A model generated the notes under the pieces. The model saw only the letters and a program-made list of their open reading frames with translations. It was not told where the DNA came from and did not search any database. Position numbers and translations under genes: made by a program. From the NCBI RefSeq assembly GCF_007993035.1, contig NZ_VOOS01000001.1, positions 1 through 64,000 of the forward strand: DNA of 64,000 nucleotides. Direction: 5' to 3'. Position 1 is the first letter of the stretch. Each line of letters begins with the position of its first letter. This document shows positions 13,434-34,961 of this stretch, piece by piece. The stretch comes from Vicingus serpentipes (lineage in GTDB: Bacteria; Bacteroidota; Bacteroidia; Flavobacteriales_E; Vicingaceae).

Positions 13434-14717
13434 TTACTTTTTAAATTCTAAAATTGTTTTTCTAATAATAGCAACACAATCTAACAATTGTTCTTTGTTC
13501 ATTACCAATGGTGGAGCAAAACGAATAATGTTACCATGAGTTGGTTTCGCTAATAAACCATTGTCTCTTAATTTAATACAAATATCCCAAGCAGTTGAGC
13601 TATCTTCTGTATCGTTAATTACAATTGCATTTAGCAACCCTTTTCCTCTAACTAATTTCACCAATGGAGACTCATCTACTAATTTGTTGATTTCTGATCT
13701 AAACAACTCTCCTAAAGCTTGAGCATTTTCAGCTAATTTTTCATCTCTAATAACTTCAAGAGCTGCAATAGCAACTTTAGCAGCAATAGGATTTCCTCCA
13801 AATGTAGAACCATGCTCTCCAGGTTTTATAACATTCATTATTTCATCATTAGCTAAAACAGCAGAAACTGGATATACTCCTCCTGAAATGGCTTTACCTA
13901 AAATCAATACATCTGGTTTAATCTCTGGTTTATTTTCACAACCATTTGAACAATCACAATTACCACAAGTAGCTAACAATCTACCAGTTCTTGCAATTCC
14001 TGTTTGAACTTCATCTGCTATAAATAAAACACCTGCTGCTTTACATAATTCCTTAGCTTCAGCTAAATAACCTTCATCTGGAACAAAAACACCAGCTTCT
14101 CCTTGAATAGGTTCAGCCATAAAGCCCGCAACGTTATCATCTTTTAAAGCTTCCTCTAAAGCATCAATATCATTGTATGGTATTTTTATAAACCCTGGTG
14201 TATAAGGACCAAAGTTTTTACGAGCATCAGGATCGTTGCTAAATGAAATAATTGTAGTAGTTCTTCCGTGGAAGTTGTTTTCACAAACTATAATTTTGGC
14301 TTCATTTTCATCAATTCCCTTTTTCTCATAGCCCCATTTTCTAGTTAACTTAATTGCTGTTTCTACAGCTTCAGCACCAGAATTCATTGGCAATACTTTA
14401 TCAAAACCAAAATATTCAGTTACAAATTTTTCAAACTCACCAAGAACGTTATTGTAAAAAGCGCGAGAAGTTAAACATAACGTATTTGCTTGGTCAGTTA
14501 ATGCTTTAACAATTTTTGGATGACAATGACCTTGATTTACAGCTGAATAAGCAGATAGGAAGTCATAATATTTCTTTCCTTCAACATCCCAAACATAAAC
14601 CCCATCACCTCTTTCTAACACTACTGGTAGTGGATGATAGTTATGTGCACCATGTTTATCTTCTAATGCAATTAGTTGTTGAGATTTTGTTTGTTCGTTC
14701 ATAGTTGTAGTTCCCAT
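13434..14717 (-). CDS. rocD: Ornithine--oxo-acid transaminase
   Basis: RocD is a PLP enzyme that transfers the delta-amino group of ornithine to 2-oxoglutarate, giving glutamate semialdehyde (arginine/ornithine catabolism and proline synthesis). The 427-residue sequence shows the family N-terminus [82 protein letters not shown] (PLP-binding Asp) and [18 protein letters not shown] with the Schiff-base Lys. An insert [13 protein letters not shown] near residue 245 carries four Cys, which many Bacteroidota RocD proteins have. The ATG at 14715-14717 is preceded by a structured leader of about 110 nt (see 14723-14830), so expression is probably controlled after transcription starts. Confidence 0.96.
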
Positions 14718-14722
14718 AATTT

Positions 14723-14830
14723 TTCAATTTTAAATAAAAATAGTTTAAATTGAAGCTCCTCACGGAGAGCACCCATCCTTTCCTCATTTCAACAGTAAGA
14801 ACAACTGTTTAAGGGAGAGAAATCATCCGA
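14723..14830 (-). promoter_or_regulatory. Structured rocD 5' leader, riboswitch-like candidate
   Basis: Read on the minus strand, this leader is markedly richer in G+C than the surrounding intergenic DNA. It contains a hairpin AACAG/CTGTT with a 9-nt loop (about 14788-14810), a purine-rich block GAGGAAAGGATGGGTG, and a hairpin CTCC-GTGA-GGAG with a GNRA tetraloop (about 14757-14768). A second CTCTCCC near 14811-14818 could compete for GGAG. Immediately before the ATG, 14723-14754 form a long AU hairpin (TTCAATTT-AAA / TTTAAAATTGAA), which could hide the start. A -7-like box TAAATTTG (minus strand, 14835-14842) would start the transcript at about 14830. I do not recognise the fold as a known Rfam family. 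Confidence 0.5.
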
Positions 14831-14853
14831 AAAACAAATTTATCTAATTTAAG

Positions 14854-14888: not shown

Positions 14889-15890
14889 ATGGGGGAAACT
14901 AATCATGAAAATAAGTTAGAAGCTAGTCTGTTTAAAAACATGATTAGAAACAACTGGAATGCTGTTGTATTTGCTAATATGAATAACATTGTTGATTATG
15001 TTAATCCTGCTGCATGTAAATTATATGGCTATGAAGAACACGAATTATTAGGACAAACTACTGATATTTTTAATAGCAATCTAACCCACAATACAGATGA
15101 AATTGTTGCTAGTATAAAAGAAAAAGCTTATTGGTATGGAGAAATAATACAAAAGAAAAAAGACGGTTCAAATTTTACTGCATTACTCTCTGTTCAATTA
15201 ATATTTAACGAAAATAATGAACCAATAGGATTTGCATCAAATAGTAAAGACATAACACTCGATATAGAAACCGCTACTCAATTACAAAAAACAATTGAAG
15301 ACAAAGAAATTTTACTTAGAGAGCTTCATCATCGAGTTAAAAACAACTTAGCTCTTATACTTGGAATATTAAATCTTCAAACAAGTCAGTATGAGAATAG
15401 TTCATGTAGCAATTTAATTGAAGACTTCAAAAATCGTGTTGAAGCATTGGCAACTTTACACAATACATTATACCAAGTCGAAAATCTAAAAGCTGTTGAT
15501 TTAAAAGTATTTATAGAAGATTTATGCGCTAATCTTTCTCGTTCATTTAAAAACGAACAGACTGAAGTTAACTTAAAATTAGTTTTAGATAATTACAATG
15601 CCGAAATCAGCAATGCTATTCCTATGGGATTAATTATTAATGAAGTAATTACCAATTCCTACAAACATGCTTTTAAGTTGAAAAAAAATGGAGTGATTGA
15701 AATTACACTTCACTCAAAAAACAATAAAACCGAGTTAATTATCCATGACAACGGAAGTGGTTTTGATTTTGACACTGAAAGCACAAAATCTCTTGGTTTA
15801 ACTTTAATAAAGGATTTAAGTGAACAAATTGATGCTAACTATAGCTTTGAAAAAAATCAAGGCACAAAATTTACACTTCATTTAAATTAG
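14889..15890 (+). CDS. PAS-domain sensor histidine kinase (HisKA_2 type)
   Basis: A 333-residue cytoplasmic kinase without membrane segments. Residues about 15-125 form a PAS domain (NNIVDYVNPAACKLYGYEE...ELLGQ, then KKKDGSNFTALLSVQLIFN and the PAC-like GFASNSKDIT). The phosphoacceptor is the HisKA_2 motif LLRELHHRVKNNLALILGIL (His about 146), followed by a HATPase with INEVITNSYKHAF (N box), IHDNGSGFDF (G1 box) and TKSLGLTLIKDLSEQI (G2). This class often pairs with separately encoded response regulators, but no receiver domain is encoded nearby. The signal is unknown. A consensus promoter abuts the ATG. Confidence 0.9.
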   Translation: MGETNHENKLEASLFKNMIRNNWNAVVFANMNNIVDYVNPAACKLYGYEEHELLGQTTDIFNSNLTHNTDEIVASIKEKAYWYGEIIQKKKDGSNFTALLSVQLIFNENNEPIGFASNSKDITLDIETATQLQKTIEDKEILLRELHHRVKNNLALILGILNLQTSQYENSSCSNLIEDFKNRVEALATLHNTLYQVENLKAVDLKVFIEDLCANLSRSFKNEQTEVNLKLVLDNYNAEISNAIPMGLIINEVITNSYKHAFKLKKNGVIEITLHSKNNKTELIIHDNGSGFDFDTESTKSLGLTLIKDLSEQIDANYSFEKNQGTKFTLHLN

Positions 15891-34885: not shown

Positions 34886-34902
34886 GGCGGTCTGGACGGG
34901 AC
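34878..34902. repeat. attachment-site repeat, tRNA-proximal copy (25 bp)
   Basis: Identical to 32290-32314. It covers the 3' 18 nt of tRNA-Asp and the first arm of its terminator. Confidence 0.85.
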
Positions 34903-34961
34903 TCGAACCCGCGACCCCCTGCGTGACAGGCAGGTATTCTAACCAACTGAACTACCAGACC
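34885..34961 (-). tRNA. tRNA-Asp (GTC), CCA encoded
   Basis: On the minus strand the gene starts GGTCTGGTAGTTCAGTTGG (acceptor arm and D arm), has the anticodon stem-loop CCTGC-CTGTCAC-GCAGG with anticodon GTC, the T arm GCGGG-TTCGAGT-CCCGT and a closing CCAGACC. It is followed by G73 and an encoded CCA at 34885-34887. Acceptor pairing GGTCTGG/CCAGACC is perfect. The 3' end is the integration target of the adjacent element. Confidence 0.98.

Follow-up and report, generated by a model that had tools for sequence, protein, structure and literature searches.

Small riboswitches such as preQ1-I and SAM-II/SAM-V are H-type pseudoknots in the 5' untranslated region, and in the glycine, guanidine-II and NAD-I riboswitches two similar units follow one another in a row. 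The leader before rocD in our window (the whole stretch of 64,000 nucleotides that was analysed) recalls both groups. As modelled, it shares with preQ1-I and SAM-II/SAM-V two short stems on one continuous strand, a short loop 1 across stem 2 and an A-rich loop 3. Unlike them, it is found in tandem copies, before rocD and apparently at the 5' end of the mRNA; it has no Shine-Dalgarno strand beside the start codon, and it gives no match to an Rfam model over the motif. With the tandem-domain riboswitches it shares the doubled layout, whereas its units appear to be pseudoknots and a single-unit version is the rule in one family, labelled f54 here.

Among RNAs described in comparable settings, the aspC motif is likewise a candidate riboswitch before an aminotransferase gene, but according to the main text of Narunsky et al. 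2024 (PMC11109978) it is a three-stem junction with few conserved nucleotides, in contrast to the highly conserved, proposed pseudoknot of the rocD leader; the terms 'ornithine', 'rocD' and 'Flavobacteri' are absent from that main text. Flavo-1 RNA (RF01705) is widespread in Flavobacteriaceae (PMC9723704), but it does not match over the rocD motif. The main text of PMC9723704 contains neither rocD nor ornithine, its 64 structured 5' regions of Flavobacterium psychrophilum being tabulated in the supplement, and the same two terms are absent from the available part of PMC2864571. The potE and odc1 motifs presented in PMC8632094 do not match the rocD leader RNA either. No report of this rocD leader RNA or of an ornithine riboswitch was found in the open-access papers searched, with PMC9723704 covered in its main text; for tandem-pseudoknot riboswitch candidates, the search led to work on human mRNAs only.

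The Rfam 15 search agrees with the initial annotation, in which the leader could not be matched to a known riboswitch. To count as a member of a family, the motif itself had to score no lower than that family's gathering cut-off under its covariance model, and no family passed; on the window as a whole the only hit is a tRNA at 34888-34961. When the threshold was relaxed to E<=10, the motif region gave irrelevant matches only, far under the cut-off, and a SAM-II match (E 6.9) lies inside rocD and is attributed to chance. For 20 relatives searched at E<=1 there were two matches, both outside the motif. A Flavo-1 match in L262 (367-511, minus strand) scores 39.8 against a cut-off of 42 bits and lies upstream of the rocD leader, outside the motif.

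The rocD locus and a tandem pseudoknot model

The rocD gene, an ornithine--oxo-acid transaminase by its NCBIfam assignment, stands alone, with a divergent upstream neighbour and a convergent downstream one. The upstream neighbour (14889-15890, plus strand) is PAS/histidine-kinase-like and begins 46 nt upstream of the promoter box of rocD; L003 and L005 have a homologue of the window's 15933-17375 gene in its place.

The initial annotation had pictured the region before rocD as an aptamer joined to a platform that masks the start codon, with GC-rich motifs, two hairpins, alternative CTCC/GGAG pairings and a long AU hairpin before the ATG. The GC-rich motifs (CTCTCCC, GAGGAAAGGATGGGTG and CTCC-GTGA-GGAG) are all found in the window, and the outer edge proposed, 14842, is correct and coincides with the promoter box. 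Most of the stretch is strongly conserved in related rocD leaders, where compensatory changes were also found in two of the helices, so the notion of a conserved, covarying and riboswitch-like RNA stands. The secondary structure fared differently. An AACAGU/ACUGUU hairpin is present in the window, but the comparison gives tandem pseudoknots at the predicted mRNA 5' end in place of the two hairpins. The CTCC/GGAG switch is not conserved: the G that it requires is, in that context, peculiar to the window, with a G at the loop end in 2 of 101 distinct tandem sequences, the second of which (L205) is a shifted parse. The AU hairpin can be drawn in the window, but against shuffles that keep the single-letter composition only, its mean z is -0.34 over 16 leaders of the same family (window -1.23), and because it is not conserved, masking of the start codon is unsupported.

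Single-sequence folding ranked the leader no better than its shuffles (z -0.76) and was uninformative for seven cores (z from -0.99 to 0.73). The case for a leader RNA therefore rests on comparison, and the best model that it yields is a pair of consecutive H-type pseudoknots, PK1 and PK2, with a common GGA...CUC-UCC...GAG plan (Table 1). In alignment numbering PK1 consists of GGA(3-5)/UCC(15-17) and UUUCUC(9-14)/GAGGAA(47-52); PK2 consists of GGA/UCC and the P2 helix RCUC/GAGY, which extends up to 8 bp, with the loop GNRAY. That PK2 is also a pseudoknot is inferred, because the strands of its stem 1 are invariant and its layout repeats that of PK1. A first guess at the structure, a bulged UUUC-U-CUC/GAGGAAA helix that was used in the covariance model R1, was replaced by UUUCUC/GAGGAA plus GGA/UCC because L029 and others carry GGG/CCC. 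An extension of PK1 stem 1 by pairs 2-18 and 1-19 was rejected, no pair enrichment being visible by eye.

Table 1. Proposed elements of the rocD leader and its surroundings (positions in the window)
Feature	Position	Strand	Basis and remarks
Promoter -7 box TAAATTTG, consensus TAnnTTTG	14835..14842	-	sequence; exact box in 86/101 distinct tandem sequences
Whole conserved RNA, PK1 + PK2	14755..14828	-	R1 93.5 bits, E 6.4e-16 (the window itself is among the sequences used to build R1); alignment A5
PK1 stem 1, 5' strand GGA	14826..14828	-	pairs with UCC 14816-14814; A-U/G-C exchange at third pair
PK1 loop 1, UGA	14823..14825	-	invariant in A5 (required by the parsing patterns used for tandem and f54 sequences)
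PK1 stem 2, 5' strand UUUCUC, with invariant U.G wobble	14817..14822	-	pairs with GAGGAA 14785-14780
PK1 stem 1, 3' strand UCC	14814..14816	-	partner of GGA
PK1 loop 3, variable	14786..14813	-	4-35 nt in tandem forms
PK1 stem 2, 3' strand GAGGAA	14780..14785	-	partner of UUUCUC
PK2 stem 1, 5' strand GGA	14776..14778	-	invariant 55/55 in A5; pairing with 14766-14764 inferred by analogy with PK1
PK2 stem 2 (P2), 5' strand GCUC	14767..14770	-	two-sided changes at 6/7 P2 pairs of A5
PK2 loop UCC, proposed stem 1 partner	14764..14766	-	invariant
PK2 stem 2 (P2), 3' strand GAGC	14755..14758	-	partner of GCUC; comparison
rocD, gene presumed controlled	13434..14717	-	TIGR01885 652.8 bits

Loop 3 of PK1 varies in sequence and length. 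In the window it holds a hairpin (14809-14804 with 14796-14791; z -2.47), and the 22 loops of at least 20 nt are on average better folded than their shuffles (mean z -1.62), which again keep single-letter composition only.

Compensatory changes in the stems

Covariation was evaluated in the tandem sequences, which number 101 distinct ones (106 parses minus 5 spurious longer ones). Alignment A5 holds 55 of these; L086, L102, L103 and L205 were removed first and near-identical sequences were then thinned. In A5 both sides change in 8 pairs and in 77 cells; 500 shuffles gave on average 5.2 pairs and 31.8 cells, and none of them reached the observed value of either. Further pair types, by contrast, are no more numerous than chance readily allows: A5 has 20, the shuffles average 18.2, and 64 of 500 reach the A5 figure. 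If the partner strand is slid by 1-3 columns, 50-66% of the cells are paired instead of 91.5%, although this control leans toward the structure, which was derived from the same sequences.

The third pair of PK1 stem 1, 5-15, was examined in 161 distinct PK1 sequences, all counts over this set being made by script without use of the left-aligned MAFFT alignment A6. It was found that the pair is A-U in 144, G-C in 10, G-U in 6 and A-C in 1, so it can form in 160 of the 161. Watson-Crick pairs number 154, compared with a mean of 136.2 and a maximum of 146 in 20000 permutations that ignore relatedness. On a tree of rocD proteins (n=123) the 5' side changes 9 times, and among 6 independent pairs with support, 4.6 show the 3' side following and 0.0 show it opposing (median p 0.0625). 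In the P2 helix there is exchange of C-G with U-A and of G-C with A-U. On the same tree the 5' side of P2 pair 63 changes 5 times with none opposed, while position 62 of pair 62-77 changes 15 times, 3.9 with its partner and 0.2 against (median p 0.125). Pairing in PK1 stem 1 (GGA/UCC) and in P2 is thus supported by compensatory changes in the aligned sequences.

The pairing of PK1 stem 2 (UUUCUC/GAGGAA) has thinner support, with few changes to read. Where position 14 is C, a G stands at 46 or 47 in 152 of 155 PK1 sequences; where it is U, position 47 is A in 4 of 4, all of them f54 sequences, which amounts to a replacement of C14-G by U14-A; and where it is A, position 47 is U in one of two (L109). 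The f54 register was chosen by us, and the 14-47 pair there needs a shift in which G46 is used and N47 is bulged. The f54 part of the tree test for 14-47, with G46 taken for C14 and N47 for U14, favours pairing by construction and serves as an illustration only. The 3 bp of PK2 stem 1 are invariant in A5 and show no covariation; because they never vary, they and most of PK1 stem 2 are silent on pairing. Taken as a whole, the 5' UTR of rocD, a metabolic gene, contains a structured and conserved RNA backed by covariation, as is expected of a riboswitch class.

Occurrence of the tandem and single forms

A small knotted leader before rocD is common to many marine and freshwater Bacteroidota, and the window carries the doubled form. 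A BLASTN search with the leader in 60 relatives gave 8 genomes including its own, of which seven are true and one (L008) is a chance match. The conserved frame that emerged consists of GGATGATTTCTCTCC, a variable spacer usually with a hairpin, GAGGAAAGGAT, a few variable letters and [A/G]CTCTCCGYGANGAG[C/T]. R1, the covariance model from seven sequences, located the leader in 16 of 46 Vicingaceae genomes, each time before rocD. It also matched 6 of the 395 genomes searched in the class and 86 of 240 Crocinitomicaceae genomes (family f20). The 87 Crocinitomicaceae matches comprise 83 placed before rocD by regular expression, 2 by eye, 1 at a contig end and 1 due to chance (L111). An open pattern run over the genome collection returned 99 stretches. 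Of these, 80 loci were read, with 73 before rocD by regular expression, 4 cut short or containing N, and 3 chance matches (L148, L154 and L166; ANME-1 and, twice, Poribacteria). The remaining 19 (L193-L211) were parsed for the motif without a listing of the downstream gene. Chance matches in L025 and at a second site in L011 were dropped.

Many rocD genes of both families lack the leader, since rocD itself is present in 42 of 46 Vicingaceae and 210 of 240 Crocinitomicaceae genomes. In g35, a large genus of the Crocinitomicaceae, most genomes keep rocD and none is listed with the leader, which makes this genus a natural comparison group for function. Some records with Crocinitomicaceae-type rocD leaders are titled Glaciecola amylolytica (L120, CP034120.1), Chitinophaga pinensis, Chryseobacterium gleum and Actinomyces viscosus (L115, L124, L126), and these titles are probably wrong.

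The tandem form was also found in Fulvivirga lutimaris, F. imtechensis and F. marina (L146, L186, L209). F. imtechensis is placed in Cytophagales, while Vicingaceae and Crocinitomicaceae belong to Flavobacteriales. The Fulvivirga rocD proteins are closest to each other and to those of motif-bearing Flavobacteriales (about 80% identity), and either common descent or transfer may explain their leader.

The single form appeared with R2, the 55-sequence covariance model: in 395 genomes of the phylum it yielded 16 weak matches in addition to the window. Twelve of these are chance matches; the other four (L220, L222-L224) lie before rocD, follow a promoter box of the same type and have only PK1. Their family, f54, is probably Flavobacteriaceae, because the 199 genomes drawn represent 198 genera and the near-threshold Flavo-1 match occurs there. 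An exact short-form pattern matched 60 of the 199 genomes, once each, with no match for a reversed control, and all 30 loci that were read lie before rocD (27 by regular expression, 3 by eye). In a set of 60 f54 genomes rocD is present in 59; 59 leaders were taken, and 47 of the 55 readable ones contain the core GG[A/G]TGATTTCT[C/T][T/C]CC...NNAGGAAT. In about half of the core-bearing leaders the spacer measures 4 to about 36 nt, and the others contain a conserved insert, CACGCTG..TTTTCG..CGAAAG..ATAAAGGTA. A second conserved domain (CACGCTGnnTTTTCG...CGAAAGnATAAAGGTA) with a variable hairpin interrupts loop 3 of PK1 in roughly every second f54 leader, among them L229, L236, L239-L244, L246, L249, L252, L256 and L259; this domain may be an extra module that binds a ligand or a protein.

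In a class-wide sample, rocD was found in 109 of 129 genomes and 106 leaders were taken, the core-bearing leaders of the window and of G003 and one gene fragment being left out of this set. The core is present in none of the 104 readable leaders; regular-expression matches in L331 and L390 are attributed to chance.

Position in the mRNA and candidate functions

TAnnTTTG is the promoter-box consensus given for Bacteroidota in PMC9723704. In 86 of the 101 distinct tandem sequences an exact TAnnTTTG ends 4-12 nt before GGA, and because of this distance the leader RNA would start at or near the 5' end of the transcript. The distance to the start codon is also kept. Of 30 single-form loci, 28 have 28-34 nt between AGGAAT and the ATG; in one of the other two an earlier AGGAAT was matched, and in the other the start codon was picked too far downstream. 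Of 99 parsed tandem loci, 80 have 17-34 nt between the end of P2 and the ATG, and the window has 37 nt.

Our preferred explanation, which we hold with slightly more belief than doubt, is an undescribed cis-regulatory RNA before rocD that is probably a riboswitch acting on translation; its likeliest ligand is ornithine or a metabolite close to it. A translational riboswitch is preferred because a conserved pseudoknot with invariant loop letters precedes one catabolic gene at a set distance from its start codon. The main rival is a protein operator, in which a protein, either ornithine aminotransferase itself or an RNA-binding regulator, binds the pseudoknots and thereby controls how the rocD mRNA is translated or how fast it decays. 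A conserved structure tied to one gene would fit this, two similar units could bind a dimer, and the spacing from the start codon suits translational control; the small size and the invariant loop letters, however, are typical of small-molecule pockets, and we regard the protein operator as unlikely. More unlikely still is an element without any sensing role, in which the pseudoknot shields the 5' end of the mRNA or sets the approach of the ribosome as a standby site. Its place near the expected transcription start (judged from the promoter distance in 86/101) and the kept distance to the start codon are compatible with such a role, but a general stabiliser is expected on many genes, whereas the leader is found once per genome and before rocD only, matches elsewhere being due to chance.

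Two further readings deal with the 5' block itself. If GGATGATTTCTCTCC and AGGAA were transcription-factor sites, the leader would be a DNA operator at the transcription start, as a near-invariant 15-nt block immediately 3' of the promoter box might suggest. We give this very little weight, as the spacing between the blocks ranges over 4-35 nt in tandem forms and exceeds 60 nt in some f54 leaders, the long spacers carry hairpins (mean z -1.62, as above), and the compensatory changes pair letters as RNA. It is just as improbable that GG[A/G]UG opens a short reading frame for a leader peptide acting by attenuation or coupling. An AUG or GUG does stand near the 5' end in nearly all sequences, and the change of A to G keeps a start codon, but over the 101 sequences the frame runs for 5-40 codons without a common end, except in 3 parses where it continues into a long frame, so no conserved short ORF of the kind expected of a leader-peptide attenuator was found. 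The length of loop 3 is not a multiple of three, and codon 4 varies.

For the translational riboswitch that we prefer, the rocD mRNA would begin with two tandem H-type pseudoknots, in which the invariant letters (UGA, UUU, the U.G pair, GGAA and UCCG) may form a binding pocket. One or both pseudoknots would be stabilised by a metabolite from the ornithine/arginine/proline branch, the simplest candidate being the substrate ornithine. Ribosome access to the roughly 30 AU-rich nucleotides that separate pseudoknot and start codon would change as a result. Shine-Dalgarno sequences are hardly used in Bacteroidota. An ON switch would be expected because rocD is catabolic, and tandem copies could sharpen the response. 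Ornithine as the simplest ligand is a guess from the single associated gene; with rocD as the only such gene the ligand cannot be triangulated, and a protein is possible as the ligand. A conserved expression platform did not emerge from the comparison, in which the AU hairpin and the spacing to the start codon were considered along with a contact of loop 3 with the 3' flank.

A more far-reaching proposal, which we put forward tentatively and consider doubtful, is that the leader represents a new riboswitch class and the first natural sensor of ornithine or a close metabolite (arginine, P5C or proline). Such a class would be a 5'-terminal H-type pseudoknot acting on Shine-Dalgarno-free translation, single in what is probably Flavobacteriaceae and tandem in Crocinitomicaceae, Vicingaceae and Fulvivirga. 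The leader adds an undescribed and widespread RNA family to a phylum whose leader RNAs are poorly known. It also offers a clean system for the control of initiation by 5' structure where ribosomes rarely use Shine-Dalgarno pairing, and since single- and double-unit leaders occur naturally before the same gene, the gain from a tandem aptamer could be tested directly.

Loop 3 might make a regulatory contact with the 3' flank, to which it shows a weak excess of complementarity (mean -2.69 against -2.19 +/- 0.14 kcal/mol, reached by 1 of 2000 permutations). In L006 about 139 nt separate P2 from rocD and contain strong hairpins of their own (z -4.84), and in L007 this interval is likewise long, at 115 nt, with a structure that is not unusual.
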